Shown here: in pieces, positions 31,750 through 48,106 of the stretch
How positions within the stretch are numbered: position 1 is the first letter of the stretch
Layout: every line of letters starts with the position of its first letter
Virus record (IMG/VR): IMGVR_UViG_3300028840_002104
Location: 21,819-85,818 of that record
From: a virus
Reading direction: 5' to 3' (one strand)
Length of the DNA: 64,000 nt
Program-made: the position numbers and the translations under genes
The notes under the pieces: generated by a model
Told to the model about the DNA's origin: nothing
What the model saw: the letters and a program-made list of their open reading frames with translations, nothing else
The model's database searches: none

Positions 31750-31765
31750 GAATGGAGGTATGACA

Positions 31766-34195: not shown

Positions 34196-34224
34196 ATTAC
34201 TGTCAAAATACCTGCCATATCCTC

Positions 34225-34254: not shown

Positions 34255-34292
34255 GATAGTGCAAAATGCGAGAATGAATGTATGATTCGGAG

Positions 34293-34315
34293 GTAACCAC
34301 AATGGGCGTGGTTAC
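34293..34315 (+). promoter_or_regulatory. Perfect 8-bp leader hairpin holding a start codon in its loop
   Basis: GTAACCAC (34293-34300) pairs with GTGGTTAC (34308-34315). The 7-nt loop contains the ATG of a 22-residue leader ORF and the stem begins at the last G of its SD (GGAGG, 34289-34293). Folding should therefore limit its translation. Confidence 0.55.
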
Positions 34316-34370
34316 ACAGATGCAAGGAGGTCAAGATGACGCGGTTATTGTCAGAATCCATGCCTTTTGA
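34302..34370 (+). CDS. Possible 22-residue leader ORF overlapping the next gene
   Basis: GGAGG (34289-34293) precedes ATG 34302. The peptide starts MGVVTQMQGGQDDAVIV and ends in another frame inside the gene at 34336. It contains that gene's SD, so translating ribosomes could modulate its initiation. Confidence 0.35.
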   Translation: MGVVTQMQGGQDDAVIVRIHAF

Positions 34371-34674
34371 GATGAGGCCATTCCTCTCTCCACAAGAGCT
34401 GGAAGAAGCCATCTCAAGCAAAGAGGGAATGGACGCTCTTCTAGCCAAGATGCAAGAGCATCATGGTGCCAACGAGGAGCACCAGAGATCCTTTCTCTCT
34501 AAACCTATGTCTTTTGTAGGTCCCGCCCATGCGATTCTCTACATGGTGCGCGTATCCAAGGAGCTTTGGCCAGAGGCGCGTATCACGGTCAGAAAGATCA
34601 CAGTTCGGAAGAATGACATGGGGTCTGGGTTCGTTCCAGGCGTCCTGAAGGCGTTTGTTACTTTGAAGTCTTGA
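34336..34674 (+). CDS. Protein of unknown function
   Basis: The product is 112 residues with AAGGAGG before the ATG. No motif is recognised. The C-terminal half is basic beta-strands (ARITVRKITVRKNDMGSG). It is the first main gene after the 34225 promoter. Confidence 0.55.
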   Translation: MTRLLSESMPFEMRPFLSPQELEEAISSKEGMDALLAKMQEHHGANEEHQRSFLSKPMSFVGPAHAILYMVRVSKELWPEARITVRKITVRKNDMGSGFVPGVLKAFVTLKS

Positions 34675-34684
34675 GGAGTGTGTC

Positions 34685-35137
34685 ATGGGTTCGCTCAAGA
34701 TGGTCACAAAGAGGCGTATTCGCCGCCCTATTTATAGGTATCCAGAGCTTCAGGCTTTGGTAGAGAGCGCGGATATTCACAAAGGGTCCAAGGTTACGAG
34801 GGTCGATAGGTGGAATCGAGAGACACAAGTTCTAGATTTCACTACAGTCGTTGGAGAGCCCTTGTCCCAGGGAAGGAGGTTCAATACTGTCAAGAGGTTT
34901 CTTGTCGAAGTGCCTGTGGTTGTGGTCGAAGGAGATGATGGTTTACCAGTAGCCGCGACACTTCAATCGTTTCCGCCGGATTATCGTCTGACAGAAGCGA
35001 TCATTGTGCCATGGTTAGTCCAGAAAGCCGAGCGCCAGGCGAAGAAGGCGCGGAGGAAAGACCTAGACATTGGTTTGGTCAGCCAACCGTTTGGGGTGAT
35101 TACCGCTCAGTATCCAACGTTTGCGAAAAGGAGATGA
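34685..35137 (+). CDS. Basic protein of unknown function
   Basis: The product is 150 residues. The N-terminus is basic (KRRIRRPIYRYPE) and the C-terminus has a Lys/Arg-rich helix (KAERQAKKARRKDLDIG). Beta strands fill the centre. It may be nucleic-acid-binding; function unknown. Confidence 0.5.
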   Translation: MGSLKMVTKRRIRRPIYRYPELQALVESADIHKGSKVTRVDRWNRETQVLDFTTVVGEPLSQGRRFNTVKRFLVEVPVVVVEGDDGLPVAATLQSFPPDYRLTEAIIVPWLVQKAERQAKKARRKDLDIGLVSQPFGVITAQYPTFAKRR

Positions 35138-35139
35138 AA

Positions 35140-36234
35140 ATGGTTGAAAAGAAAGATGTGGCTAACATTCTTAGTGGTATTATCACTCAGGCTGAGACAA
35201 TCAAGGATCAGGCTGAGTGGCTTCTCTCTAAGTTTGGTGGCAGCAAGAAAGAGCAGAAGGAATCGCCTGGCGCGAAGTCTGAAACAAGTCTTCAGGATGA
35301 GATGAGAGTCTTTCCCAAGCCTGACGTCATCAAAGAGATGGGCAGAGAGAAGTGCCTGGAGTGGTTTGACGCTCTTGGTCTCAGCACGGCTGAGCATAAG
35401 AACGACTCTCCGTCCAAGCTCCGAACGGATCTCTTGGTCATGGCGGTTGCCATAGATGGTGACAGCTCTTCAAGGCATCATAAGGTGACTGTTGCTCAGG
35501 TGGCCGCGCTCCTGGAATGCGAGGTAGAAGATGAGGACAATAAGACGGTCCTTCTTACCAAGATTGGTGAAGCAATATCTCAGCGCCTGAACAGCGGACA
35601 AGAAGTTGAGGAGGGTCCTGATGAGGAAGAGACAGAAGAAGGCCCTGAAGAAGAAGAAACGCCTTCAGGCGAAGGAGAAGAAGAGACAGAGGAAGGTCCA
35701 GACGAAGAAGAGGAAGAGACACCTGATGACGGCGAAGAGGAGGAAGGCCCAGAAGAAGGCCCGGAAGAAGCGAACTTAGGCGGAGATTTTGTCCTGAAGC
35801 CCAAGTTCATCAAGAAGGCCAAGGAGAGCATAGCTGAAGAGGTGGAGAAAGACAGCAATGCTGTTGCGGAACTAGCTGTTGAGGCTAAGGTCAACTGGGT
35901 TCCCTTCCTGCCTGAAGATGTCCAGAAAGCCGCGCTAGACATGAGCGACGAGGACTTAGTTCTCGCTTTTGAGTGCGCCTTTGTTGATGATGAGGGAGAA
36001 GATCATGACTGGGATGAGGCGTATTCTCATAACGGCACGGTGTTCTGCAATGGCGTTGATGTCAAGGAACATGAAGGTGATGAGGACTTCACTTGGCATT
36101 CAAGCGTAGAGTCGCCGCCAGAGGGCATTGATCCCAGTGACTTTGGAATAGGCGTTTCTCGTGGTTCCGATGAGACTCACTACTTCATGATCCATGATGG
36201 GAAAATTCTTGAAGTAGAACCCGTGTCAGGCTGA
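35140..36234 (+). CDS. Acidic-linker protein of unknown function
   Basis: The product is 364 residues. ATG 35140 is chosen with AAGGAG 6 nt upstream; ATG 35134 is in frame too. Residues of about 153-207 are almost only Glu, Asp, Gly, Pro and Thr in repeats like EEGPDEEETEEGPEEEETP. This flexible acidic linker joins a helical N-terminal domain to a mixed C-terminal domain (GGDFVLKPKF onward). Such linkers can mimic nucleic acid or bind basic proteins; no function is established. Confidence 0.6.
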   Translation: MVEKKDVANILSGIITQAETIKDQAEWLLSKFGGSKKEQKESPGAKSETSLQDEMRVFPKPDVIKEMGREKCLEWFDALGLSTAEHKNDSPSKLRTDLLVMAVAIDGDSSSRHHKVTVAQVAALLECEVEDEDNKTVLLTKIGEAISQRLNSGQEVEEGPDEEETEEGPEEEETPSGEGEEETEEGPDEEEEETPDDGEEEEGPEEGPEEANLGGDFVLKPKFIKKAKESIAEEVEKDSNAVAELAVEAKVNWVPFLPEDVQKAALDMSDEDLVLAFECAFVDDEGEDHDWDEAYSHNGTVFCNGVDVKEHEGDEDFTWHSSVESPPEGIDPSDFGIGVSRGSDETHYFMIHDGKILEVEPVSG

Positions 36235-36257
36235 ATTTTCTGGCTGACCGTGGCCAC

Positions 36258-36291
36258 GAGGAGGAAGTCTCTCTTTTGGGGCTTCCTCCTC
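36258..36291 (+). terminator. Terminator-like perfect 10-bp hairpin
   Basis: GAGGAGGAAG (36258-36267) and CTTCCTCCTC (36282-36291) pair perfectly with a 14-nt loop, 24 nt after a stop codon. A T-run is lacking (ACCCCCTAAAA follows), so termination would be weak or factor-assisted. Confidence 0.55.
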
Positions 36292-36660
36292 ACCCCCTAA
36301 AAGTTATGCTCAGAGTTATTGCATTTGTTCATAAGGGGTTGGGCTTGGCGTGTTGAGGTTGGTTTCGTTCAGGCACGTTTAGGTTGGTTACGGCTAGGTC
36401 TGGTTAGGTTGGCCATGGCGTGGAAAGGTTAGGTTGGCTGTGGTTTGGTAGTGCAGGGTTTGGTCCCTAGTGGGGTCTGTTGGGTTCAGTTTTGGTTAGG
36501 TCTGTTGGGTTGAGGTATGTTCAGTTCTGGCCGGTCATGGCGCGTTGAGTTGCGGTTTGTTTCGTTAAGGCGGGGCGAGCTTAGGTGTGGTTTGTTTTGG
36601 TCCGGTAGGGTCGGTTTGGGTTGGTTGGGTTAAGGTTTGGTATGTCTACTTGAAAGGATG
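36292..36660. other. Non-coding G/T-rich tract with degenerate GGTT repeats
   Basis: No ORF with an SD is present. In 36421-36600 I count 18 A and 20 C in 180 bases, so G+T is about 79% on this strand. GGTTAGGTTGG occurs exactly at 36402-36412 and 36427-36437, with many near copies (GTTGGGTT, GGTTTGG). Candidate roles are an R-loop or G-quadruplex-forming control or replication element, or an untranslated RNA; none is shown by sequence alone. Confidence 0.75.
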
Positions 36661-36666
36661 TGAGTT

Positions 36667-37290
36667 ATGCCAGCAAAGAAAGTTGCAAAGGTGTTAGGTC
36701 CTGAAGTTTCTAACGGTGCCAAGGTTGCTATTGAGTCAGGAATTCCATTTACGCTCAGAGCAAGGGTGCGGGGTGTTTCTCCAGGTCTCATTATGCATGC
36801 TTGGAACTGTGAGGCAATAGCTAATCTTCCAGGCAAAGGCGCAAAGAAGAAGGATGATCTTGAGACTTATGTTCGGCGTGATGACGAAGGTTATCTTTGC
36901 ATTCCAGGTGAGTATTTTAGGGGCTCTATGATTAATGCGGGCAGATCCAGAAAAGATCCCAGATCTTCTAGGAAATCCATGATGGATCTTTTGAAGGCGG
37001 CAGTTATTCCTCTGACCTATTTGGCTCCTATTAGTCCTAAGTCTAAGGAGTGGCCTAAAGTGCATAAGTGCCGAGCGGTCATTCAGCGTTCGGCTATTAC
37101 TAGAGAACGTCCCTGGTGGCCTGAAGGGTGGGAAGCTCAGATAGACCTTCAGTGTATTATGCCTGAATACGTGAGTCCCACGGTGTTTCACGACATCTTG
37201 GTAGATGCGGGAAGGTTTGTGGGTGTGGCTGACTATCGTCCTACTTACGGTCGTTTTCAGGTTATTCACAGCGAGATTCTTGAGGACTAG
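36667..37290 (+). CDS. Conserved-looking phage protein of unknown function
   Basis: The product is 207 residues; ATG 36667 has AAAGGATG upstream. It is well folded in appearance, with Trp/Pro-rich middle (TRERPWWPEGWEAQIDLQC) and a C-terminal FVGVADYRPTYGRFQVI element that I have the impression recurs in phage proteins. No catalytic motif is recognised. It is the first gene after the G/T-rich tract. Confidence 0.55.
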   Translation: MPAKKVAKVLGPEVSNGAKVAIESGIPFTLRARVRGVSPGLIMHAWNCEAIANLPGKGAKKKDDLETYVRRDDEGYLCIPGEYFRGSMINAGRSRKDPRSSRKSMMDLLKAAVIPLTYLAPISPKSKEWPKVHKCRAVIQRSAITRERPWWPEGWEAQIDLQCIMPEYVSPTVFHDILVDAGRFVGVADYRPTYGRFQVIHSEILED

Positions 37291-37314
37291 AGGTGTCTTG
37301 GTTGTGGCCAAAAC

Positions 37315-37350
37315 GGGGAGAGGGTCGCTTGTGAGAGAGGCTCTCTCCCC
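37315..37350 (+). terminator. Terminator-like hairpin
   Basis: GGGGAGAG (37315-37322) pairs with CTCTCCCC (37343-37350), loop 20 nt, followed by ACCTCCTATTTTA. It lies in the 85-base gap after the gene ending at 37290. Confidence 0.5.
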
Positions 37351-37375
37351 ACCTCCTATTTTAGAAGGGAATATC

Positions 37376-37654
37376 ATGGCTGCGAAAGCGGGTCTGAAAG
37401 CTAAAGAACACCTGTGGCGGCATAACTACAGGAAGCTTAGCCCTCGTGAGCAGAGGGAAGGGCAGCCTCCGTTCATTGAATGTTTTCTCTGCGGGAGTTA
37501 TACTTCTGTTCAGGGTAGAGAATGGGTTCAGATGGCCTCTTTGTCTCCTCGGATGTTGAAGAAAGAGGGTCTAGATGGGTTTCCTCAGACTCACCTTTTG
37601 GTCTGTCGTCTCTGCGAGAGGGATCTTTTGAGATTGGAGAAGTCCTTTGCCTAG
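37376..37654 (+). CDS. Small zinc-ribbon protein
   Basis: The product is 92 residues from ATG 37376 with AGAAGGGA upstream. CFLC (about residue 38) and CRLC (about residue 80) form a probable zinc site. The N-terminus is basic. It resembles HNH-like zinc scaffolds without the catalytic His. Function is unknown. Confidence 0.55.
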   Translation: MAAKAGLKAKEHLWRHNYRKLSPREQREGQPPFIECFLCGSYTSVQGREWVQMASLSPRMLKKEGLDGFPQTHLLVCRLCERDLLRLEKSFA

Positions 37655-37669
37655 AATCAGGAGAATCTC

Positions 37670-37924
37670 ATGAACATTGAAAGCTTGAAAGATGCAGAAG
37701 CTCATGTGAGGGTTGCTCAAAACATTCTTACGGCTCAAAGGAAAAAGTGTCCCGATGATGGGCCTTACGAAGATTTAGACAAGGGAATTAAAGCCTGTTC
37801 TTGGGTCCTTTCGTCTCTTGAGGATGTGCTTAACGATTTTCCTCGCAAGTACACGTGCTCTGTTTGTGGCGCTATCTTTGAGCCCTCTTGTCCTGTTTGC
37901 GCGATGTATTTGGACGAAGGTTAG
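37670..37924 (+). CDS. Small helical protein with C-terminal zinc site
   Basis: The product is 84 residues. A helical N-terminal part is followed by YTCSVCGAIFEPSCPVCAMY, two CxxC pairs fit for one zinc. It directly precedes the DpdA-like gene, whose SD lies at its stop. Confidence 0.55.
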   Translation: MNIESLKDAEAHVRVAQNILTAQRKKCPDDGPYEDLDKGIKACSWVLSSLEDVLNDFPRKYTCSVCGAIFEPSCPVCAMYLDEG

Positions 37925-37934
37925 GAGGTCTCTG

Positions 37935-39236
37935 TTGCCTAGAATCTTCTATGCGGGAACTGATGAAGATGAATTCTACAACCTATCATGCGAGCAAGGC
38001 GTTGATGCACAGCTTGTCTCTTTCTACAAAATGCGGAAATGGCCTGCCCTACTCCGCAAGCGGAAAGAAGAGCATCCAGAGGTAGACTTCTTTGTTGATT
38101 CGGGGGCCTACACGTTTCAGCGAGAAAAGGGTCAAGAGCTTACCCTTGATGATTACGAGCTTTACGCGGAAGAGTACACCAAGTATCTAGAGACAAACAT
38201 TGACTGTATATTTGCTGCGGCAGAGCTGGATGTTGAACAGGTTGTAGGGCTGGAGAGAGTGTATAGATGGCAGCGGGAATTGTTTGCTCCTCTTGAGGAT
38301 CGCATCCCCATTGTGTATGTCTGGCATCCTTTTCGCGGTCCAGATGGCTGGACAGAGATGTGCAAGCAGCATGAGTATGTGGGCTTCTCCCGCGACGTCT
38401 CGCATGAAGAGCGCGTGAGACTGCTTGCCACAGCGCGGAAATATCTGACCAAGGTCCATGGCTTTGGTATCACTGACTCCACCTCTCTGAGAACGCTGAA
38501 TTGCTATTCCGTGGACTCTCTGACGTGGAAGACTTGTGAGATGTATGGCACTACCTACTATTGGGACGGTTCTACGCTGAAGGTCTTCGATAAGACGCAG
38601 AAAGATCAGAGGCGCAGGTTCAGAGGCCAGTTTGAGACTCTAGGACTTGACTGGGCGGCCATTGAGAATGATGAAAGGCGAGAGATCACTAGAGCTTCCC
38701 TGATGGCCTTTCGTCTCATGGAATTCGCGATGGAGAGGCGGGCGGTCATGGTCCCCTTCTGGGAGTATCGAGTCCCTCCAAGAGAGCTGAGCCCTGAAGA
38801 CATCTCGAAGTGGGCAGAGAAGTTTGGCTGGAAGAATGCTGAGTTTGATGATTCTGAAGAGGACAAGTTCTATGTGAGTCTTGTCCAGGCTGTGCAGAAC
38901 AACTGGGGACTTGAAGACTATGATCCAGAGGATCTGGCAGAAGGTCTTGGCTGGCTTCTGAAGAGTCACGGGAAAGTCACGAGTGATCCTCACGACGCGG
39001 CGATTTATGACAAGATTCGGGTGAAGATGAATGATTGCTTGGTGCCGAAGAAGACATTCGCGGTGCCGAGGACTTCAAATGAGGTATTTCTAGACAGGTT
39101 CCCAAAGCCTAGAGCAAGGTCTTTAGAACCTACTGACTACAATACTTTGGACTGGCGAGAAGTGGATAAGAACATGGCTGCGGCGCTAGATGCAGGTGTC
39201 CGCGAAACGATGGAGGATTCTGATGGGCTTTTCTGA
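37935..39236 (+). CDS. dpdA: DpdA-like 7-deazaguanine DNA transglycosylase
   Basis: The product is 433 residues from TTG 37935, which has AGGAGG 6 nt upstream. It resembles the TGT-related DpdA family: FFVDSGAYTF (about residue 50, the catalytic Asp region), then VGFSRDVSHEERVRLL, then KVHGFGITDSTSL and YSVDSLTWKT (C-terminal barrel strands). It would exchange guanine in DNA for preQ0 made by the QueC-FolE-QueD-QueE set at 31.7-34.2 kb. Subtype and target motif are unknown. Confidence 0.75.
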   Translation: MPRIFYAGTDEDEFYNLSCEQGVDAQLVSFYKMRKWPALLRKRKEEHPEVDFFVDSGAYTFQREKGQELTLDDYELYAEEYTKYLETNIDCIFAAAELDVEQVVGLERVYRWQRELFAPLEDRIPIVYVWHPFRGPDGWTEMCKQHEYVGFSRDVSHEERVRLLATARKYLTKVHGFGITDSTSLRTLNCYSVDSLTWKTCEMYGTTYYWDGSTLKVFDKTQKDQRRRFRGQFETLGLDWAAIENDERREITRASLMAFRLMEFAMERRAVMVPFWEYRVPPRELSPEDISKWAEKFGWKNAEFDDSEEDKFYVSLVQAVQNNWGLEDYDPEDLAEGLGWLLKSHGKVTSDPHDAAIYDKIRVKMNDCLVPKKTFAVPRTSNEVFLDRFPKPRARSLEPTDYNTLDWREVDKNMAAALDAGVRETMEDSDGLF

Positions 39237-39966: not shown

Positions 39967-40748
39967 TTGTCGTGTCAGATCTGCACTTTCAGCCGTTCAA
40001 GAGAGCTTCGGAACAATCTCCTTTGCTTGAGCCTTTCTTTACCTATGTGTGTGGCAGAGACGAGCTGCTTATCTTGGATGGCGACACCTTTGATTGCTTT
40101 CCATACACCTTCTTGATGGCTCTAGAGATGTTTGGTCATTGGTTTGAGGATGTGGCTTTGAGTGGTGGTCTCATCGTTATTGAAGGCAATCACGACTACG
40201 GCATCAAGAGTATAGCTTCTTCTTTGGAGCTATCTGTCTGTTCCCAGGGAGGCTTAGAGATCCAGGATTGTAAAGGCAGGCTGTGGATGATAAAGCATGG
40301 TCATACCCTTGATTCTGTGTGGGGAAAAGAAGGTGTGTTTGACTCAGAGCAACCGAAGAAGGTCAAGTTCGGAAGAGCTTTTTTGGCTGTTTCGATTCTG
40401 CTTGAGCGAGCTATCCCGTCTTCGGATGATCGTCTTCTGGCGGCGGGGAGAAAGGTCTATCGTGCTCTGTGTCCAAAAGGTGAGGAGGTCCAGACAGAGA
40501 TCTATAGACAAGATGCTCTCAGGCATTTCTCTAGAGGCTTTCACGGATATCATTACGCCCACACTCATGATCTACACCATGAAACGGTGAGCGTTGGCGA
40601 TAGACGAGCAGTGATCCTAAACGCGAAAGACTGGACAAGTGGCTCTGAGTCCGTGTACTTTTCGCGGCTAGAAGAAGACGCAATCTACGAGTTTACCGAG
40701 GATGGTCCTCGGCTACATTGGCAGGCTGGTCAGTCAGAAACCGCCTAG
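39963..40748 (+). CDS. Calcineurin-like metallophosphoesterase
   Basis: The product is 261 residues from ATG 39963. Metal-binding motifs: VVSDLHF (DxH, residue 5), LDGDTFDCF (GDxxD, about 38), EGNHDYG (GNHD, about 78), HGHT (about 114) and YAHTHD (in place of GHTH, about 203). The substrate could be nucleotide, nucleic acid or another phosphoester. It shares the operon with dpdA. Confidence 0.83.
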   Translation: MIVVSDLHFQPFKRASEQSPLLEPFFTYVCGRDELLILDGDTFDCFPYTFLMALEMFGHWFEDVALSGGLIVIEGNHDYGIKSIASSLELSVCSQGGLEIQDCKGRLWMIKHGHTLDSVWGKEGVFDSEQPKKVKFGRAFLAVSILLERAIPSSDDRLLAAGRKVYRALCPKGEEVQTEIYRQDALRHFSRGFHGYHYAHTHDLHHETVSVGDRRAVILNAKDWTSGSESVYFSRLEEDAIYEFTEDGPRLHWQAGQSETA

Positions 40749-40762
40749 CAGAAGGAGGTGAG

Positions 40763-40933
40763 GTGAAAAGAGTGCTCAAAGTCAATCGACCCTTTGAGAG
40801 AAGACGTAATGGCAAGGATATGTCCGTTTCCTTGGACAGAATCCGGAGAGTGCAGGCCATACGTCCAGGTCTTGGCCCAGAGCTGGAGCACAGACTGCGT
40901 GAGGAGGGCAGAATTGTTGGCCGCAGTGTCTGA
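40763..40933 (+). CDS. Small basic protein
   Basis: The product is 56 residues from GTG 40763 with AAGGAGG upstream. It is Arg-rich and helical (SLDRIRRVQAIRPGLGPELE). Function is unknown. Confidence 0.5.
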   Translation: MKRVLKVNRPFERRRNGKDMSVSLDRIRRVQAIRPGLGPELEHRLREEGRIVGRSV

Positions 40934-40965
40934 GCCAAGAGAATGTCAGAATGAAAGGATGAACG

Positions 40966-41166
40966 ATGGATGAAGTTAGATTTCCTGATGTGACTGTTCG
41001 ATTGGTGGGCGAATCTGGTAACGCTTTCGTCATCATGGGAAAAGTGATAAGCGCTCTGAAAAGAGCGGGTCACGCTGACGCGGTAGATGAGTACACCGCT
41101 GAGGCTGAGTCAGGAGATTATGACAACCTGCTTACTGTCACGATGAGGTGGGTTAACGTAGAATAG
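40966..41166 (+). CDS. Small protein of unknown function
   Basis: The product is 66 residues with GAAAGGATG before the ATG. Predicted strand-helix-strand (VTVRLVGESGNAFVIMGKVI...). Function is unknown. Confidence 0.55.
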   Translation: MDEVRFPDVTVRLVGESGNAFVIMGKVISALKRAGHADAVDEYTAEAESGDYDNLLTVTMRWVNVE

Positions 41167-41178
41167 GAGGTTGCCAGT

Positions 41179-41529
41179 ATGCGTGGTGAGAGAGAGGACG
41201 ACGGCTTTGCAACAGGCGTTGTTGTCGTGATTTTGATTGTTGTGATCGGAGTAGCTCTTTTTGGAAGCGGTTATTGGTTAGCAGCAAGGCACTATAATCG
41301 AAGTCTGGATAAGATCAGAGCTTGGTATCTTGCAGACCTCAACAAGACTCCTATGAGAGTCCTAATGCCGGAAGATCTAGACGTGGACGATCAGATCAGA
41401 TTGGCCACAGCCATTCTCAACAGCGCACTTCAAGTTCAAGGATCTGTGGTTGATGTCACGGTCACGCCTCCAGAGATTGTGCGAGGTGTTGAAAAAGTAG
41501 AAGCTGCGGCGAAAGGGATGGTAGAATGA
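41179..41529 (+). CDS. Single-pass membrane protein
   Basis: The product is 116 residues with TAGGAGG before the ATG. One transmembrane helix (residues of about 13-36, rich in Val, Ile, Gly) follows an acidic N-terminus; the soluble part continues with RHYNRSLDKIRAWYLAD. It may be an inner-membrane or lysis-related protein. It overlaps the next gene by ATGA. Confidence 0.55.
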   Translation: MRGEREDDGFATGVVVVILIVVIGVALFGSGYWLAARHYNRSLDKIRAWYLADLNKTPMRVLMPEDLDVDDQIRLATAILNSALQVQGSVVDVTVTPPEIVRGVEKVEAAAKGMVE

Positions 41530-41840
41530 AGACAAAGACAACGTTGATCGGACCAAACGATGGCCTACCTACCTGGGTTACGTTCAAAACGCTTTCGGGT
41601 AGAGAGATCGAAACCATCGGTCCCGCAGGAGAGATCAAGCTCCAGGAGGAAGATCGAACCTTTGTTCGTTGTCGCGGAGAAAAGGTCATGCAGGTTCTTC
41701 AGATAGATGAAGACAAGGTGACTTATGAAGACCTTTTCAAGGAAGCGAAGCGGCAAAACCTGAAGTGGATTGTCTTTGGCAATCCTGCGGCGGTCCCAAG
41801 AGCAGGAGAAATCAAGATACTGGAACTGATAGAAGAGTGA
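41526..41840 (+). CDS. Small protein of unknown function
   Basis: The product is 104 residues, overlapping the membrane-protein gene. Mixed alpha/beta with no recognised motif. It is the last gene before a terminator and the 40-bp repeat region. Confidence 0.5.
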   Translation: MKTKTTLIGPNDGLPTWVTFKTLSGREIETIGPAGEIKLQEEDRTFVRCRGEKVMQVLQIDEDKVTYEDLFKEAKRQNLKWIVFGNPAAVPRAGEIKILELIEE

Positions 41841-41846
41841 CACCTC

Positions 41847-41863
41847 CTCCCCTTACCGGGGAG
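41847..41863 (+). promoter_or_regulatory. Short GC hairpin after a stop codon
   Basis: CTCCCC-TTACC-GGGGAG, a perfect 6-bp stem starting 7 nt after the stop at 41840, immediately before a larger terminator stem. Confidence 0.4.
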
Positions 41864-41869
41864 CCCGGC

Positions 41870-41924
41870 GAGACCGGCAATCTGGAATTGTGCTTGCGTG
41901 GTTTTGGATTGCTGGTCTCTTTTT
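41870..41924 (+). terminator. Rho-independent terminator with a 13-bp stem
   Basis: GAGACCGGCAATC (41870-41882) pairs with GATTGCTGGTCTC (41907-41919), one G-U, and a run of five T follows (41920-41924). The 24-nt loop is larger than usual. Confidence 0.7.
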
Positions 41925-41932
41925 ATTCTGAG

Positions 41933-41948
41933 AAGCTTCGCGAAGCTT
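41933..41948. repeat. Perfect 16-bp palindrome
   Basis: AAGCTTCGCGAAGCTT reads the same on both strands and ends 2 nt before the 40-bp tandem repeat. It could bind a dimeric protein or form a small cruciform. Confidence 0.6.
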
Positions 41949-41950
41949 TG

Positions 41951-42118
41951 GCCTGTGGCTGGCCTGTGTCAGGCCCTGGCAGGCCCTGTGGCCTGTGGCT
42001 GGCCTGTGTCAGGCCCTGGCAGGCCCTGTGGCCTGTGGCTGGCCTGTGTCAGGCCCTGGCAGGCCCTGTGGCCTGTGGCTGGCCTGTGTCAGGCCCTGGC
42101 AGGCCCTGTGGCCTGTGG
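41951..42118. repeat. GC-rich tandem repeat, 40-bp unit, 4.2 copies
   Basis: Identical units at 41951-41990, 41991-42030, 42031-42070 and 42071-42110, then 8 bp of a fifth. Each unit contains GGCCTGTG- and AGGCCCTG-type subrepeats. The unit length is not a multiple of three and the overlapping frames encode only repeats, so it is non-coding. Adjacent AT-richer DNA and a strong promoter suggest an iteron-like control or replication element. Confidence 0.9.
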
Positions 42119-42132
42119 TTACTCTTGTAACC
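42117..42132 (+). promoter_or_regulatory. Small hairpin at the end of the tandem repeat
   Basis: GGTTAC-TCTT-GTAACC, a perfect 6-bp stem with 4-nt loop, at the junction to the AT-richer spacer. Confidence 0.4.
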
Positions 42133-42243
42133 TGACTACGTTTGTTACTATTCCCAGATTTTGCCTAAAATGCTTAAATACGAGACTTACGCCGATTTGA
42201 CCTGTTTTGACAGTAATGATTATGTCTAGTGACAGTACCCCTA

Positions 42244-42272
42244 TTGACAAATATGCATATACTCTGTATAAT
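42244..42272 (+). promoter_or_regulatory. Consensus sigma70 promoter for the cassette operon
   Basis: TTGACA (42244-42249) and TATAAT (42267-42272) with a 17-bp spacer: a perfect match to the consensus. It reads toward the stem-bounded genes and probably drives strong early transcription. Confidence 0.88.
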
Positions 42273-42295
42273 GTGGTATGCTGTCACTATGACAG

Positions 42296-42316
42296 AACAC
42301 AGTATTACACTGTGTT
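42296..42316. promoter_or_regulatory. Inverted repeat just downstream of the promoter
   Basis: AACACAG (42296-42302), 7 nt, CTGTGTT (42310-42316). A perfect 7-bp palindrome 24 bp after the -10 box; an operator or 5' hairpin. Confidence 0.5.
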
Positions 42317-42319
42317 AAC

Positions 42320-42648
42320 ATTCTTTCACAACATAGGCCACAATGGCCAATCCTCATGATCTCTGGTCATGCTACTGCTAAACCAGTAAAGTCCAGTATG
42401 ACATGAGATGATAGGTTAGGCTTCCCTCTGTCTACTTTCTGAGGTATCCTCCGGTTCTCCCACAGGTACACAGATACCTAAGTAAGCACACCAGAGCAAA
42501 ACGTTGTCCTTGACGTTGAGAGTAGACTCCTAACACGGATCTTTGACAATTTTGAGTAGTGAGACTGAACCTATACTGTGGTGTATGGCAAGATACACAC
42601 GCGGTTGAAGCTAAGGTAAAGGAACTACATGGTGGTGTATATCCACTA
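42320..42648 (+). promoter_or_regulatory. Structured untranslated leader of the cassette operon
   Basis: No ORF has a credible SD. Several short stems are visible: GGCCA/TGGCC (42336-42348), AGGTA/TACCT, AACGT/ACGTT, and GTGTAT (42581-42586) with ATACAC (42593-42598). The latter ATACAC could alternatively pair with a second GTGTAT at 42635-42640, so two exclusive folds are possible. Its length (about 370 nt from the likely start to the first cassette) is unusual for a phage leader. Confidence 0.5.
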
Positions 42649-43120
42649 GTTGACACCAGACCAGCCCACTCTTTTGAAGGAGGTTGGTCATGGCTAGAAC
42701 CTTTTCACAATTGCTTGACAGTGAAAAAACGGCTTTTCTTGAGAAAGCTTACCGTTCTAAGGATAGAGTTCTTGACCCGCAAGATTACGCACAGGCTATG
42801 TATGTTCAGGATGCCGTCAACATGAATGGCGTGGTGGCATCCTTGGCAGAGCTTATGCCTAAGATTCGTGAGGAAGCGTCGGTCAGAGCGGAAGTCTTCA
42901 CACTAACCTTAGGTGATGATGATGTTTATGGATTTCCCATAACTGAATTCATTAACAGGCATCCGATAGTGAGACTCTTCGCGGAGACCCTGTACCAAAA
43001 AAGTCACTTTCCGATGGGCGATAATTATCACTTCGCATATGAGATCTGCTCGGAACGAATGAAAGAAAGTTCCTAGCTAGTGAGATTGAAGGAGAAAGAG
43101 TGGGCTGTTCTGGTGTCAAC
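42649..43120 (+). repeat. Stem-bounded cassette 1: inverted repeat enclosing one gene
   Basis: Left arm 42649-42674 and right arm 43095-43120 are complementary over 26 nt with one C-U mismatch (42661/43108). The left arm ends 15 nt before the ATG; the right arm starts 19 nt after the stop. The arm sequence is unrelated to those of the other cassettes. Confidence 0.92.
42690..43076 (+). CDS. Cassette 1 protein of unknown function
   Basis: The product is 128 residues. The start lies in the module GGAGGTTGGTC-ATG shared by most cassette genes. It is mostly helical (FSQLLDSEKTAFLEKAYRSK) with no recognised motif or membrane segment. Expression from the strong 42244 promoter suggests an early host-takeover protein; this is inference. 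Confidence 0.65.
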   Translation: MARTFSQLLDSEKTAFLEKAYRSKDRVLDPQDYAQAMYVQDAVNMNGVVASLAELMPKIREEASVRAEVFTLTLGDDDVYGFPITEFINRHPIVRLFAETLYQKSHFPMGDNYHFAYEICSERMKESS

Positions 43121-43123
43121 ATG

Positions 43124-43959
43124 CGTCAGTATCCAATCGGCCCGCCCTCTCAAAGGAGGTTGGTCATGGATACTAACAGACTTATCGCTCTGGTAGAGAC
43201 AGTCGAGGATATTCCTGATTGTTGGTTTGACTCTAATGAGTATGTATCCAGCAAGCAGGCAGACAACTTCTTCGCCCTTAACTCGGAGAGTAAGATTGTC
43301 AACGGTGACCAGTTCTTTGTCACCGCTTGTCAAGTCGAGGATGTTCTCAGAGATAAGGCTCCTCATTTGGTTGAAAGCTTTCACCAGTTGATGCTTTACC
43401 TGGAAGATCGTGTCGTTGATGCGGTTGATACAGCAGAAGCTAATGCTGAAGAAGCCGACGATAAGACATATCAACGGAACAATTATCGAGAGATGGCAGA
43501 TTTAGGTGAGTACTTGCAAGAAAGGTACGATGAGCTGGAAGGCGAGTGTGCAGAGCTGGAAGAGGAGAACAAAGATCTTCGAGAACAGCTTGAGATGGAG
43601 GAAAGAGTTTCGCACAGAGACTCTGAGACCTTCAAGGTGCTGAAGAAAACAGGTGCCTGTTGGGAAGGCATAATGTTTGCCGATGGGTACTCAGATCCCA
43701 ACGAAGCATGGAAAGCCTGCGAGAATCCAGACTGGATGGATTGGTTTTTACAGGTCGTTATGCTTGACGGCAGTTCTGTGAAAAGAAGCTCGGATTATGA
43801 AGTCTTCAAGGTGGGCTATGACAAGCTTATCCGCTTTGGTGGCGTGACTCAGAAGCAGAAACTTGAGTATATCAGGGAATGTTTTCCGAACGTTCCAGAT
43901 TTCTCTCATTTGCTGAAGTGAGAGAATAGGTCAGAGGGCGTGCCGCTTGGATACTGACG
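43124..43959 (+). repeat. Stem-bounded cassette 2
   Basis: Left arm 43124-43150, right arm 43933-43959, complementary over 27 nt with U-C (43137/43946) and C-U (43142/43941) mismatches. It starts 3 nt after cassette 1. The left arm ends 15 nt before the ATG and the right arm starts 11 nt after the stop. Confidence 0.92.
43166..43921 (+). CDS. Cassette 2 coiled-coil protein
   Basis: The product is 251 residues, with start module GGAGGTTGGTC-ATG. Residues of about 110-155 are a strong coiled coil (YDELEGECAELEEENKDLRE). The C-terminal 90 residues are alpha/beta with Trp and Asp. Function is unknown. Confidence 0.65.
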   Translation: MDTNRLIALVETVEDIPDCWFDSNEYVSSKQADNFFALNSESKIVNGDQFFVTACQVEDVLRDKAPHLVESFHQLMLYLEDRVVDAVDTAEANAEEADDKTYQRNNYREMADLGEYLQERYDELEGECAELEEENKDLREQLEMEERVSHRDSETFKVLKKTGACWEGIMFADGYSDPNEAWKACENPDWMDWFLQVVMLDGSSVKRSSDYEVFKVGYDKLIRFGGVTQKQKLEYIRECFPNVPDFSHLLK

Positions 43960-43961
43960 TA

Positions 43962-44798
43962 CTCTCAGCCTTGGAAATGGCGGTCAATAGGCACAGGTTT
44001 GATCTCAACTAGAAAGGTTGGAACTATGCCTAGAAAGAAAAACGTAAAGACTACGCCCCAAACCGAAACCAAGAAGGAAACCTCGACCAAAAAGAGGCGT
44101 CCTCGCAAGACTCCGGCTGATGTAAAGGAAGATCCTAAAAAGGCTGCAAAGGCAAAGCCTGAAGACTCCAAGAAGGCGAAGCCTGAAGATGCCAAGGATA
44201 AGCCTGCCATCAGCTACGAACCCAAAGAGGTTCACATGGTTGGAGCCAAGAAAAGCCCTTGGGCTGCTCTGTGGTTCTACGCGAAGTCTCACGTGATGGT
44301 CTGCTCAGGATTTCCAATGCCCTGGTGGACTGAAAAGAGGCCCAACACGCTAGAGTCGGAAGTCAATCTTCTCTCAGGCACTCTTGACCAGATTGTGACA
44401 TTGAGAATTCAATGGCATATGTTTGGAAACAAGGTAACCACGTATCTGCAAGCCAATGTCAGAGACGGTGCAGGCAAGCCCGAGCTTTTGGCTAAGGCGG
44501 CGGAACCTGTGAGTGCGATGGACACGGCAAAGGCTATTCCTGTTCTTCTTAAGATGGGAGAAGAGGCGGGCTTCAAGATCTCTGAGATCAAGAAAGGCGT
44601 TGAAAGGCTCGATAAGATCCGCGAGCGATTGGATTTGATCCTGATGAACGCTCAGCCGCTCATCTCTATGCAAAAGCTCCTAAGAGCCAAGCAAGATCCT
44701 TACATGGAGATTGCTGAAGAGGAGAAAGAGAGCGCCTAGCGTGATTAGGACTAATTGACCAACAGTAGCTTATTGATCGCCATTTCCACGGCTGAGAG
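43962..44798 (+). repeat. Stem-bounded cassette 3
   Basis: Left arm 43962-43989, right arm 44771-44798, complementary over 28 nt with one U-C mismatch (43971/44789) and one G-U wobble (43983/44777). It starts 2 nt after cassette 2. Confidence 0.92.
44026..44739 (+). CDS. Cassette 3 protein with basic repetitive N-terminus
   Basis: The product is 237 residues. Residues 1-65 are Lys/Pro-rich with repeats of KPED(S/A)KK type and are probably disordered and nucleic-acid-binding. The rest is folded (KSPWAALWFYAKSHVMVC), ending in a long helix. The SD here is GAAAGG, differing from the shared module. Function is unknown. Confidence 0.65.
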   Translation: MPRKKNVKTTPQTETKKETSTKKRRPRKTPADVKEDPKKAAKAKPEDSKKAKPEDAKDKPAISYEPKEVHMVGAKKSPWAALWFYAKSHVMVCSGFPMPWWTEKRPNTLESEVNLLSGTLDQIVTLRIQWHMFGNKVTTYLQANVRDGAGKPELLAKAAEPVSAMDTAKAIPVLLKMGEEAGFKISEIKKGVERLDKIRERLDLILMNAQPLISMQKLLRAKQDPYMEIAEEEKESA

Positions 44799-44850
44799 AG
44801 CAACTAGCCTTGACCTAGCCGCCTTTCACTGAATGAATGGAGGTTCGGTC

Positions 44851-45270
44851 ATGGAAGCTGCAACAGATACGACGAAGATTCGTCTTGAGAATGACAATTT
44901 GAGGAAACGCTGTGAGGATATGGGCGTTGTCCTATCCTTAGCCGCCTCAATTGCCGACAAGAGGCACCACGACGGAGAAGGCTTTCTGGGCCTTGTCCTG
45001 CGAGAGGTGTCAGAGACAGGCTTGAAAGACGTTTTGGTACTCACTCGCGGAATATGTTTCTTCTGTGAGGATCATCCCCAAAGGGTTGTAGGCTTGATCC
45101 ATGAAGTAGCGAATTACAGCGACTTCTCGGAAAGCATTGATCCTTACGGAGAGCATGAGATGGGCGTGTTCGAGTGGTATGGTCGGAAATGCTTCTGGAA
45201 GGTAGACTTTCAGGGTGGGCATGATGGCATCAACCGAATACTTACCATCCTATTCGCAGAGGAGTACTAG
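44851..45270 (+). CDS. Cassette 4 protein A, unknown function
   Basis: The product is 139 residues, start module GGAGGTTCGGTC-ATG. An N-terminal helical region precedes CFFCEDHP and an aromatic C-terminal half (MGVFEWYGRKCFWKVDF). The CxxC might bind metal. The stop is followed one base later by the ATG of gene B. Confidence 0.6.
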   Translation: MEAATDTTKIRLENDNLRKRCEDMGVVLSLAASIADKRHHDGEGFLGLVLREVSETGLKDVLVLTRGICFFCEDHPQRVVGLIHEVANYSDFSESIDPYGEHEMGVFEWYGRKCFWKVDFQGGHDGINRILTILFAEEY

Positions 45271-45271
45271 A

Positions 45272-45505
45272 ATGGCGTGGAAAAGCGATCATCCCCTGTT
45301 TAGAAGTCTCACAGATGAAGAAGAGTTGGAAATGAGAGTTTGGGCGCGTGACAATTACGAGCTGCTATCTGAGATTAACGCTCTTTGGCATCCTGTAGTC
45401 CGAGAAGAGTGTAATCGGATGAACGATGAACATCTCAGAGATAGCACTAATTCGTTTCTGGCACAGATTGAATACATAGCCAATGAAGCGAGAGAAGAAG
45501 CCTGA
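45272..45505 (+). CDS. Cassette 4 protein B, unknown function
   Basis: The product is 77 residues, starting 1 nt after gene A (SD GGAG within its end). Acidic and helical. Function is unknown. Confidence 0.6.
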   Translation: MAWKSDHPLFRSLTDEEELEMRVWARDNYELLSEINALWHPVVREECNRMNDEHLRDSTNSFLAQIEYIANEAREEA

Positions 45506-45548
45506 GTGAAGGAATGGTGAAGGGCGGCTAGTTCAAGGCTAGTTGTGG

Positions 45549-45962
45549 CAAGATTAGGTCCGATCTGGCCTGCCTCTAGATTGGAGGTTTGGTCATGAGC
45601 ATGACAGTATTCGATTGTCGAATGAGTCCAGTTTTCCGTCTTCCATTGGAACAAGCTCCTGGCGCGGAAGAAGCGATAGAGAGGCTTGACCTTGAGGATG
45701 ATTGTATGGTTGATTTCGATGAGATTGTCTGCGGTTGGGCTGAACACAACGCGGAGCTTGAAAAGTGGCTCCATGATTGGTGGCGTGCCGATGAGGTTAT
45801 CTCTGACGGTCAAATCGTCGAAATCAAAGGCCGTAGGTATGTGGAAATTGCCATGGGCATTGTTCAGATTCCGCCCTGGCGTCCAGATATCGCGAAAGCC
45901 TTGAGGTTGAAGGCCCCTAACTGACAGTATGAAGGAGGCAGGCCAGCTCGGATCTAATCTTG
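45549..45962 (+). repeat. Stem-bounded cassette 5
   Basis: Left arm 45549-45576, right arm 45935-45962, complementary over 28 nt with one U-C mismatch (45564/45947) and one G-U wobble (45558/45953). It starts 3 nt after cassette 4. Confidence 0.92.
45595..45924 (+). CDS. Cassette 5 protein, unknown function
   Basis: The product is 109 residues, start module GGAGGTTTGGTC-ATG. Acidic, with Trp-containing helices (NAELEKWLHDWWRADEVIS). No recognised motif. Confidence 0.62.
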   Translation: MSMTVFDCRMSPVFRLPLEQAPGAEEAIERLDLEDDCMVDFDEIVCGWAEHNAELEKWLHDWWRADEVISDGQIVEIKGRRYVEIAMGIVQIPPWRPDIAKALRLKAPN

Positions 45963-46504
45963 TGTCAGAACCGACTCAGCCTATCCAGCTAGTTTGGAGG
46001 TTTGGTCATGGATAGTCTAGTCAAGGCACAAATGAGATACGTTCTTTTTCTGAGCCCTTTGGCGCGTTCCTTAGAAGCGTCAGGAGATGCTGCACTCAAG
46101 CTCTCGGCTGCTTATGGTCGTGATGAGCCAAACATGGAGGCTGAGTTTGTGGCAGAGGCGCTAATGTTCTACGTTCAGGCTATCGCTTGTATAGATGTTA
46201 GAGAGGATATTCTGAATGATGGAACGAATGACGCGCTTGTTGAAAAGGATTATGAGCACAGAAATCGGTTGATGGCCAAGATGTATGATAGTTTCCGAAT
46301 CTACCTCGATAGGTTCAAGAGGCAGAAGGAAGGCCACAGAGACTATGGTATAAAGGAGTTGGCTGAAGCTTTCGTGCAGGCGGCGAAAGGCGGAGGCTTT
46401 GACTCTGCTCACCGTTTGGTAACTATGGCTTCAGAAGAGATCTTTGGTGGTCACGTTCGGATATAAAGCATGAGTTGCTGGATGGGCTGATTCGGTTCTG
46501 ACAC
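45962..46504 (+). repeat. Stem-bounded cassette 6
   Basis: Left arm 45962-45989, right arm 46477-46504, complementary over 28 nt with one C-U mismatch (45975/46491) and one U-G wobble (45982/46484). Its left arm begins on the last base of cassette 5. Confidence 0.92.
46008..46466 (+). CDS. Cassette 6 helical protein, unknown function
   Basis: The product is 152 residues, start module GGAGGTTTGGTC-ATG. Almost wholly alpha-helical, no transmembrane segment. Function is unknown. It is the last gene of the array. Confidence 0.62.
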   Translation: MDSLVKAQMRYVLFLSPLARSLEASGDAALKLSAAYGRDEPNMEAEFVAEALMFYVQAIACIDVREDILNDGTNDALVEKDYEHRNRLMAKMYDSFRIYLDRFKRQKEGHRDYGIKELAEAFVQAAKGGGFDSAHRLVTMASEEIFGGHVRI

Positions 46505-46527
46505 TCTGCCAAGAGATTTCACGGGTT

Positions 46528-46616
46528 TTGGTCCCCATGACCAAGGCAGGCGGAGAACATCTCAACCGTTATACTTAGAGAGTTCGGCCAATTTTCGGAC
46601 ACGTTCTCCGTCTGCC
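46528..46616 (+). promoter_or_regulatory. Two hairpins closing the cassette array
   Basis: TTGGTC-CCCAT-GACCAA (46528-46544) is a perfect 6-bp stem. Next, 46545-46558 pairs with 46603-46616 over 14 nt (one G-U), enclosing 44 nt with no ORF. This looks like a cassette stem with nothing inside and may mark the 3' end of the operon transcript. No T-run follows. Confidence 0.6.
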
Positions 46617-46640
46617 ACCTCCTATTTGTATAGGTTCCTC

Positions 46641-46669
46641 TTGACATTGACATCAGGATAGGTTACATT
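46641..46669 (+). promoter_or_regulatory. Sigma70-type promoter
   Basis: TTGACA (46641-46646), 17-bp spacer, TACATT (46664-46669), after the cassette array. Confidence 0.6.
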
Positions 46670-46711
46670 GGGTGTAGATAGTGTCAAACGTTGGCACTGC
46701 GGCATACACCC
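46670..46711. promoter_or_regulatory. Inverted repeats at the start of the 46641 transcript
   Basis: GGGTGTA (46670-46676) pairs with TACACCC (46705-46711), and AGTGTC with GGCACT inside. The outer repeat spans the expected transcription start, so it may be an operator; the inner repeat can form a leader hairpin. Confidence 0.4.
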
Positions 46712-46728
46712 TTTCTAGTAGGATGATT

Positions 46729-46753
46729 GGGCGGCCTTCACGGGTCGCCCTTT
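46729..46753 (+). terminator. Terminator-like hairpin between promoter and gene
   Basis: GGGCGGCC (46729-46736), loop TTCACG, GGTCGCCC (46743-46750), one G-U, then TTTCGTCTTTT. It sits between the 46641 promoter and ATG 46771, so it could attenuate transcription of the gene. Confidence 0.6.
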
Positions 46754-46770
46754 CGTCTTTTGGAGGTCCT

Positions 46771-47034
46771 ATGAAAGTCGAAGTTGAGATAGATGAAGAG
46801 TTACTTGAGCAGGCGCGGGGATATCTGAAGAAGCTTAGAGAGGTAGACGAAGGTAAGTTTGCTGAGCAGGAAAAGATTCTTGGTCAAAAAGTGTCATTCG
46901 CTCTACTGTCAAGGCTATCAGGTACTTTCGCATCGCTAGGCTTGGAAATCACCAAACAGGTGGATGCTGATTTAGGCGAAAAGGCCGAAAGGCGTTTCTT
47001 TCCAACGCTATTAAAGCGTAAGAAGGATACTTGA
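46771..47034 (+). CDS. Small helical protein of unknown function
   Basis: The product is 87 residues from ATG 46771 with GGAGG upstream, not the upstream GTG 46681 that would run through the hairpin. Highly charged and helical. It precedes the ArdC unit and its promoter begins at the stop region. Confidence 0.6.
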   Translation: MKVEVEIDEELLEQARGYLKKLREVDEGKFAEQEKILGQKVSFALLSRLSGTFASLGLEITKQVDADLGEKAERRFFPTLLKRKKDT

Positions 47035-47059
47035 CAGTTCTTTCCATGTCTGCTAGAAT
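47031..47059 (+). promoter_or_regulatory. Sigma70-type promoter for the ArdC gene
   Basis: TTGACA (47031-47036), 17-bp spacer, TAGAAT (47054-47059). A perfect hairpin TCAGAT-GAA-ATCTGA (47067-47081) would sit at the very 5' end of the transcript. Confidence 0.8.
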
Positions 47060-47101
47060 GTTACTGTCAGATGAAATCTGAACCAAGAGAGGAGGCCGAA
47101 A

Positions 47102-48106
47102 ATGGGGAACTCGGTCTATGACATCGTTTACGAGAGAATAGTCCAGAAACTTGAGGAAGGTGTTGTTCCGTGGCAGAAGCCGTGGGCAGGTTGCAAACCC
47201 CCCGCCAGTTTGGTCAGGAAGACCCCCTACAGGGGAATCAACGTTGTCCTGCTTGCCATGTCTGGCCAGTCGTCGCCTTGGTGGTTGACCTACAAGGATT
47301 GTAGACAGCGCCTGGGTGGGCGGATCAAAGATGGCCAGTACAACAAGTGGTCAATGGTAGTCTTCTGGAAACCTCGCTTGAAGGTCAATGGCAAATGGCT
47401 GAATGATAAGCAGTTTGCCGCCTTCAATCGGTCGTCCATCGGAGATAACGATGAGGTTGAAAGCGTTCCACTACTCAGGTACTACCGAGTTTGGAACCTA
47501 TCTCAGTGTGAGGGTATCCCTGAAGACAAGATCCCTGAAGAGGTAGGCAAAGATGGTGAGCCTCTGGATCTCTGTGAAGAGATCGTTGATGGTATGCCTT
47601 GCCCTCCTGCGATAAAGCTCTCTGATGTAGGTAGAGCTTTCTATCGTGGAGGTATGTTCGATGAGGTGTCCCTTCCACGTCCTCGATACTTTGAGAACAA
47701 GGAAGCTTACTACGTGACCCTCTTTCACGAATTGGCTCATGCAACTGGCCACGAGAAGCGGCTAGCGCGGAAGAAGGCTGCGGCTGATAGTCGATTGGTT
47801 GGCTCCTACAGTCAAGAAGAGCTGGTGGCGGAAATGACTGCCTGCTTTCTCTGCTCTGAAGTGGGCATCGAATCGACCTTTGATAACTCAGCGGCTTACA
47901 TTAGCGGCTGGCTTGAGTCCTTCGACGGAGATAGAAAGATGCTGGTGTTTGCAGGTCATGCGGCACAGAAGGCGGCAGATTGGATTATGAACCGCATTCC
48001 AGATGAAAAGGTTCTTGATCTGATAGGCGGCAAAAGTGCAGGTGTGACAGGGAAAGCGTGCTATACTGAAGATGTAGATAGAGCAGCATTCGCCAATGTC
48101 AATTAA
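47102..48106 (+). CDS. ArdC-type antirestriction protein (ssDNA-binding plus zincin-like)
   Basis: The product is 334 residues with GAGGAGG upstream. The N-terminal domain (VYERIVQKLEEGVVPWQKPW, then YRGINVVLL and WLTYKDC) is the ArdC N-terminal ssDNA-binding fold. The C-terminal zincin-like domain has YYVTLFHELAHATGHEKRL (HExxH, about residue 210) and YSQEELVAEM with the third ligand Glu. ArdC proteins protect incoming DNA from restriction. It has its own promoter. Confidence 0.82.
   Translation: MGNSVYDIVYERIVQKLEEGVVPWQKPWAGCKPPASLVRKTPYRGINVVLLAMSGQSSPWWLTYKDCRQRLGGRIKDGQYNKWSMVVFWKPRLKVNGKWLNDKQFAAFNRSSIGDNDEVESVPLLRYYRVWNLSQCEGIPEDKIPEEVGKDGEPLDLCEEIVDGMPCPPAIKLSDVGRAFYRGGMFDEVSLPRPRYFENKEAYYVTLFHELAHATGHEKRLARKKAAADSRLVGSYSQEELVAEMTACFLCSEVGIESTFDNSAAYISGWLESFDGDRKMLVFAGHAAQKAADWIMNRIPDEKVLDLIGGKSAGVTGKACYTEDVDRAAFANVN

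Follow-up and report, generated by a model that had tools for sequence, protein, structure and literature searches.

Our analysis of the window, the whole 64,000-nucleotide stretch of viral DNA considered here, strongly supports the presence of six gene-enclosing stems, in which six abutting pairs of inverted-repeat arms, 26-31 bp in length, together enclose seven open reading frames (ORFs). We propose, with a probability of roughly 0.6, that this operon is a series of pre-rRNA-like mRNA domains in which boxA recruits Nus factors, the helices fold during transcription and host RNase III cuts out one RNA per cassette.

Six stems around seven genes

Inverted repeats were scored over the whole 85,818-base record to which the window belongs (Watson-Crick pairs +1, G.U 0, mismatches -2, with 150-2500 nt between arms). 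The array stems score 22-26, compared with 17 for the best other inverted repeat in the record and a maximum of 14-18 in 40 same-size first-order Markov genomes. All six arm pairs were found where a first-pass annotation had placed them, with stems 2 and 3 proving slightly longer than it had given. On the plus strand the leader and trailer arms lie at 42649-42674 and 43095-43120 for stem 1 (one C.U mismatch), 43122-43150 and 43933-43961 for stem 2 (a U.C and a C.U mismatch), 43962-43992 and 44768-44798 for stem 3 (a U.C mismatch and two G.U), 44801-44829 and 45517-45545 for stem 4 (a C.U mismatch and one G.U), 45549-45576 and 45935-45962 for stem 5 (a U.C mismatch and one G.U) and 45962-45989 and 46477-46504 for stem 6 (a C.U mismatch and one G.U), with base 45962 common to stems 5 and 6. 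Successive cassettes are spaced by 1, 0, 2, 3 and -1 nt, in agreement with the earlier statement that neighbours lie within 3 nt of each other.

The loops between the paired arms carry the genes and measure 358-782 nt. For cassettes 1 to 6 the gap from left arm to ATG is 15, 15, 33, 21, 18 and 18 nt and that from stop codon to right arm is 18, 11, 28, 11, 10 and 10 nt, such that in five of the six cassettes the left arm ends 15-21 nt 5' of the ATG and the right arm begins 10-18 nt 3' of the stop. Translation need not melt the arms because they stop outside the ribosome footprint at the start and stop codons. The six arms had been described as mutually unrelated. Their sequences do differ between cassettes, but five of the six units share a leader string across the left arm and ribosome-binding site, RGCC-N12-18-GGAGGTT(N)GGTCATG (5 matches versus 0 in 100 shuffles; the exception is cassette 3, whose leader is unlike those of the other five), and a C.U or U.C mismatch is present in all six stems.

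All seven ORFs lie on the plus strand. No known family was found for those of cassette 1 (42690-43076, 128 aa), cassette 3 (44026-44739, 237 aa with a Lys-rich N-terminus) or cassette 6 (46008-46466, 152 aa), and no confident family for the second ORF of cassette 4 (45272-45505, 77 aa) or the ORF of cassette 5 (45595-45924, 109 aa). Family matches to the cassette 2 ORF (43166-43921, 251 aa) were all weak, a leucine-zipper among them, and its product is probably a coiled coil. The first ORF of cassette 4 (44851-45270, 139 aa) encodes a DUF3768 protein (PF12599, E 5e-12) with distant matches in Rhizobium phages. The family search recognised no recombinase family among the cassette proteins. There were no Rfam matches at 40000-48000 and no SSU rRNA in the whole record; the loops hold ORFs instead.

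An unconstrained MFE fold of 4.1 kb contains all six stems. Mean pair probability per cassette is 0.91-0.97 and the stem stabilities range from -45 to -53 kcal/mol. Wobble-class differences in the six stems comprise 6 G.U and 0 A.C (P 0.016), and the other mismatches are C.U or U.C in 7/7 cases (~1e-5 if mismatch types are equally likely), with at least one per stem and in 6/6 stems one located 9-15 bp from the outer end, near the stem middle. With G.U as the sole kind of wobble difference, A.C being absent, and a C.U mismatch near the middle of every stem, the array stems behave, on this sequence evidence, as plus-strand RNA.

Promoter, leader and boxA-like element

The cassette operon is preceded on the plus strand by a sigma70 promoter, TTGACA-N17-TATAAT (42244-42272), which matches the consensus at 12/12 positions and outranks every other promoter-like site in this region. 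The palindrome CTGTCACTATGACAG (42281-42295, plus strand) lies where transcription is expected to start, seen in the sequence and as the first hairpin of the leader fold, which probably serves as an operator. The predicted untranslated leader (42280-42648, plus strand) is about 370 nt long and structured, with a fold z-score of -2.5 and 1/100 shuffles equally stable. Within it is a boxA-like element of the rRNA antitermination/Nus-factor type, TCTTTGACAATTTTGAGTAGTG (42540-42561, plus strand), the only TCTTTRANAANT match on both strands of the 85.8 kb; the boxA-like CTTTGACAATTT at 42541 stands 96 nt 5' of stem 1 and downstream of the perfect promoter. A boxA in the transcribed leader of the cassette operon is thus placed on sequence grounds, and is well supported by them.

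Strings similar to the window boxA precede 16S/23S rRNA in many bacteria, chiefly Planctomycetes, and the exact string is absent from all genomes searched. As a motif the window boxA spans 12 nt, and its 5-nt spacing to TAGTG was found beside rRNA in 0/22 of the five-nt cases sampled, 2 of which were too short to judge. A boxA-like string much like it occurs in Glaciecola contigs, where no Rfam match was found nearby.

One-cassette relatives in Streptomyces phages

Borockvirus-like Streptomyces phages are distant relatives of the window phage, with a capsid protein 39% identical. In five of these (BRock, GiJojo, Alone3, LuckySocke and pSt2308) one homologous gene (GiJojo gp202, BRock gp9 and kin) is likewise stem-enclosed, the helix having 28-31 bp with a constant central A.C mismatch; homology between this gene and cassette 1 was not detectable. 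The first-pass annotation had suggested looking for compensatory changes in related phages, and in these distant one-cassette relatives pairing is kept, with 4 double-sided compensatory pairs, 1 change from U.G to U-A and 0 broken pairs. As a close relative of the window phage was not found, covariation was testable only here. Upstream of the Streptomyces-phage stems sits a copy of the host pre-23S rRNA boxA leader. The pattern TTGAGAAYTNNACAGTGKRCGCGA, taken from the Alone3 leader, occurs in 10/199 actinobacterial genomes with at most 6 copies each, and 12/12 copies fetched were located 30-41 nt 5' of 23S rRNA. The distance from boxA to the first stem is greater in the window than in these phages. 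The covariation in the relatives and the upstream rRNA-type boxA leaders lend support to the earlier view that gene loops with their own stems come nearest to the pre-rRNA stems cut by RNase III. No description of the gp9/gp202 cassette as stem-enclosed was found in the literature searched.

Within IMG/VR, cassette 3 gave no relative and cassette 4 none that was confirmed. The neighbouring ArdC gene led to 28 loci, where identity reached 41% at most and stems of this kind were lacking; DNA polymerase and terminase searches led to distant loci only, again without stems. Scans of viral contigs returned 26 stretches with the leader string, none recognisable as a gene-enclosing stem array, and 6 with the boxA string, strong stems being found in none. 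A clear gene-enclosing stem was not found in the other capsid-protein relatives, BS162P1 and MT835482. Early operons of other, unrelated actinophages carry rRNA-type boxA leaders without gene-enclosing stems, and boxA and stems are therefore separable.

Expression of the operon and known parallels

Transcription would start at the perfect sigma70 promoter and copy first the long leader with its rRNA-type boxA. Host NusB/S10 and other Nus factors would bind this boxA and hold the leader near the polymerase, aiding elongation and long-range pairing. Each gene would be transcribed between leader and trailer arms, which on pairing form a helix of 26-31 bp. The transcript would thereby become a row of six helices, and every loop that they close would have its own ribosome-binding site and ORF or ORFs. 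Host RNase III, the phage itself having none, may cut these helices as it does the 16S and 23S leader-trailer helices, so that every cassette would yield a single short RNA whose ends are paired, and we infer as the benefit early mRNAs that are equal, durable and translated separately. Weighing against this model are the spacing of the window boxA to TAGTG and its greater distance from the first stem, the stemless boxA leaders of other actinophages, and the fact that covariation could be followed only in one-cassette relatives whose enclosed gene shows no detectable homology to cassette 1. The more general proposal, that some phages dress early mRNAs as rRNA precursors, with a host-derived boxA and one helix per gene harnessing the route by which the host elongates, folds and RNase III-processes rRNA, and with the central mismatch of each helix acting as a dedicated processing signal, has in our estimation about an even chance of being correct.

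Long near-perfect RNA duplexes of 26-31 bp are normally good RNase III substrates, and an rrn-type boxA close by points to use of the rRNA pathway in full. Both argue against stems that stay uncut, where mRNA loops would shield ends from exonucleases and RNase E, a stop beside a start would favour re-initiation by the same ribosome and boxA would act purely in antitermination. We consider this unlikely, although it would suit the placement of the arms outside the ribosome footprint in five of six cassettes, the stability of the helices and the finding that E. coli needs its leader-trailer helix for more than RNase III cutting, since the helix matters also when RNase III is absent (PMC10250234). 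The transcript has six RNase III-type helices and one boxA behind a very strong promoter, and leaders resembling those of rRNA are found repeatedly in the early operons of actinophages unrelated to one another, as might be expected of a decoy. Such a decoy would draw NusB/S10, SuhB or RNase III off host rRNA operons and so help to stop ribosome synthesis, with the genes as passengers. This is very improbable, however, as every stem fits tightly around a gene that has a strong ribosome-binding site of its own, a feature superfluous for a sponge.

Tandem cassette-like order, a short common leader string and unrelated gene contents could point to mobile or recombining DNA units with terminal inverted repeats. 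Such units are largely refuted by arms that differ between cassettes, the lack of a recognised recombinase family, the strand bias of the mismatches toward RNA pairing and the in-place covariation of homologous Streptomyces-phage arms, and we give them an extremely slim chance. Archaea produce circular RNAs when they process pre-rRNA at stems of this type, and the Streptomyces relatives encode RNA ligases, which would fit stems that bring the RNA ends together so that each mRNA is circularised. Because neither RNA ligase (PF09414) nor RtcB (PF01139) was found in the record, which is possibly incomplete, we demoted circularisation to a similarly minimal probability.

If the preferred reading of pre-rRNA-like mRNA domains cut by RNase III is true, the maturation route of boxA/Nus tethering and leader-trailer helices serves more than rRNA, and phages express protein genes by it. 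It would then provide a tractable system for roles of boxA and helix other than ribosome assembly, and would suggest a portable design in which a polycistronic transcript is cut into mRNAs that are equal and protected at their ends. With isolated Streptomyces phages at hand, this reading is already testable at the bench.

No report of a phage mRNA of such build was found in the literature searched, which took in few subscription papers. The RNase III sites of T7 early mRNA are local hairpins between genes; the operon resembles T7 in that host RNase III probably cuts an early phage transcript between its genes, whereas the window arms lie far apart with genes between them. Unlike transposon or integron cassettes, the arms differ per unit and no recombinase family accompanies them. 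Outside rrn, the boxA elements of lambdoid nut, suhB and a ParE-like toxin bring Nus factors of the host to transcripts other than rRNA (PMC5725501, PMC10250234), as proposed here, but without gene-enclosing helices. In the present operon, with its structured leader, no N-type protein has been recognised so far. In rrn operons boxA and the leader-trailer helix act together, and their roles apart from ribosome assembly are still debated (PMC10250234, PMC4807359). The bacterial rrn operon shares with the array a long helix (about 26-30+ bp) round each product, a boxA upstream and serial products in one transcript, and differs in that the phage loops are protein genes with ribosome-binding sites, in six units nearly without spacer and with no rRNA. 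Borockvirus-type Streptomyces phages likewise have a host-like pre-23S boxA followed by a gene-enclosing helix that is mismatched at its centre, but as a single cassette with different arm sequences, and no similarity was detectable between its gene and cassette 1.

Stems enclosing the cassette genes

All six inverted repeats of the first-pass annotation were found at the positions it described and its spacings hold, except that stems 2 and 3 proved slightly longer. When arm pairs are scored +1 for Watson-Crick, 0 for G.U and -2 for mismatches the six stems score 22-26, against 17 for the runner-up long-distance pair in the whole record and best scores of 14-18 in 40 simulated genomes. The unconstrained minimum-free-energy fold of 42560-46680 contains 25-30 pairs of each stem, and mean arm pair probability is 0.91-0.97 when each cassette is folded separately.

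Read as plus-strand RNA, the non-Watson-Crick positions of the six stems comprise six G.U and seven C.U or U.C, with no other type. Arms matched only as DNA would be expected to give G.U and A.C equally, making six against none a 0.5^6 = 0.016 event, and C.U/U.C as the sole remaining mismatch type has a probability of ~1e-5 if all types are equally likely. Such restricted departures, together with the location of all genes of the region on the plus strand, indicate that the pairing was most likely selected in the transcript. In every stem 9-15 bp separate a C.U or U.C mismatch from the outer end (stem 2 has two mismatches of this type), and this central pyrimidine mismatch seems to have been selected.

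Five cassettes share the module RGCC-N12-18-GGAGGTT(N)GGTCATG, which begins in the left arm, takes in the ribosome-binding site and ends with the start codon (five matches versus none in 100 shuffles); cassette 3 lacks it. The seven cassette proteins are unrelated to one another; one contains DUF3768 and the remaining six have no confident family. Directly after stem 6 a hairpin (TTGGTC-CCCAT-GACCAA, 46529-46546) contains CCATGACCAA, the exact complement of TTGGTCATGG, a string that lies across the start codon in cassettes 1, 2 and 6 and, in nearly this form, in 4 and 5; the hairpin is a possible antisense or shared-regulator site. The structured non-coding stretch at 46505-46660 (14-bp stem GGCAGGCGGAGAAC/GTTCTCCGTCTGCC, fold z -3.6), which precedes the next promoter at 46641, might be a terminator or a small RNA.

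A perfect sigma70 promoter stands at the start of the operon, and directly upstream of the promoter region is a perfect 40-bp tandem repeat (41949-42118, 4.2 copies, 100% identical). Just downstream of the cassettes an ArdC-like anti-restriction gene (47102-48106) has its own near-consensus promoter (47031-47059). The window corresponds to bases 21819-85818 of the virus record, which is 85,818 bases long. The record also encodes terminase, portal, major capsid, tape-measure, DnaB, primase, DNA polymerase A and RecA, and within 31748-39236 of the window there are genes for QueC, GTP cyclohydrolase I and a queuine tRNA-ribosyltransferase-like (DpdA-type) protein, a set that suggests 7-deazaguanine modification of phage DNA.

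A single-cassette form in Streptomyces phages

Relative searches found no close relative of the window phage; its capsid protein shares 38-40% identity with the capsid proteins of the Streptomyces phages GiJojo, BRock, Alone3, LuckySocke and pSt2308. In an inverted-repeat scan the top long-distance repeat of GiJojo surrounds a single gene, gp202, which lies on the minus strand at 109322-109678 between arms at 109278-109305 and 109697-109724; the gp202 homologues in the other four phages (38-55% protein identity) are likewise enclosed. Across the five, which give at most four independent helix versions as the arms of Alone3 and LuckySocke are the same, four pairs show two-sided changes (three G-C/A-U, one U-A/C-G), one U.G changed to U-A and no pair was broken. 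An A.C mismatch is constant at pair 14 of 28, while conservation of the neighbouring untranslated sequence is poor. This covariation, for which the first-pass annotation had called, is a result for the single-cassette form in these relatives. BRock has a second strong long-distance inverted repeat (compared sequence L080, 2530-2552/5014-5036, score 20) with several genes inside, which was not seen in its relatives.

boxA-like leaders

The sequence TTGANAAYTNNACAGYG immediately precedes the stem in the Streptomyces phages, and its Alone3 version is TTGAGAATTGAACAGTGGACGCGA. A pattern built from the latter is present in 10 of 199 actinobacterial genomes, at no more than six copies per genome; all 12 fetched copies are found 30-41 nt upstream of the 5' end motif of 23S rRNA, and 16S, wherever visible, ends 276-355 nt before it. 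Given this position beside 23S rRNA, the Streptomyces phages have the pre-23S boxA leader of their host.

With both strands of the 85.8 kb taken together, the broad boxA family TCTTTRANAANT has a single match, which falls at 42540 within the cassette operon's 370-nt leader. Scanning genomes with TCTTTGACAATT-N3-5-TAGTG returned 116 places, among which, as listed, 38 copies precede 16S rRNA and 3 precede 23S rRNA, these rRNA-adjacent copies being mainly from Planctomycetes and nearly all with a 3-nt spacer. The 5-nt spacer class, to which the window phage belongs, had no rRNA neighbour among the matches listed, so the identification of the putative boxA at 42540 rests on its 12-nt core and position. 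Five Glaciecola contigs (L081, L117, L188, L191 and L195) have in common TCTTTGACAATTT-AGTAGTGAGA, which closely resembles the window element; no rRNA motif was found nearby in any of the five and no Rfam match in three of them, and it is a possible non-rRNA boxA site.

An actinobacterial-leader search placed boxA-like sequences at the start of putative early operons in other, unrelated actinophages, namely Likavirus and Gordonia phage Bantam, and the mycobacterial version of the leader matched at operon heads of Adzzy and Bongo. These rRNA-like leaders of Likavirus, Bantamvirus, Fromanvirus and Bongovirus (compared sequences L216 684-705, L217 687-708, L219 1115-1143, L221 950-978 and L222 1394-1415) precede the first gene in terminal operons that, from place and gene content, are probably early. 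Several of the operons include anti-restriction genes; in the window the ArdC-like gene stands at 47102, close behind the cassettes. The operons scanned contained no gene-enclosing stems, so boxA may be common at the heads of actinophage early operons and the helices an addition; phages in general could possibly use host rRNA antitermination. Two viral contigs contain nested inverted repeats of TTTTGGGAC units (L043 5400-5684, L050 9841-10125), perhaps a replication origin.

Proposed processing and the rrn parallel

We propose that the cassette transcript would fold and be cut one cassette at a time by host enzymes. As the arms lie just beyond the reach of a ribosome at the start and stop codons, translation and pairing could coexist. 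The main rival is an uncut closed loop that would protect the ends of each cassette RNA. The phage record contains neither an RNase III gene nor an RNA ligase from either family searched (PF09414 and RtcB, PF01139).

In the rrn operons of E. coli, NusB/S10 is bound by boxA, the Nus/SuhB complex is believed to hold the leader at the polymerase so that the leader pairs with the trailer once this emerges, and the leader-trailer helix is then cut by RNase III (PMC4807359, PMC10250234). The order of parts in the window, as read from its sequence, is alike; unlike rrn, genes take the place of the rRNA and six helices stand in series with almost no spacer.
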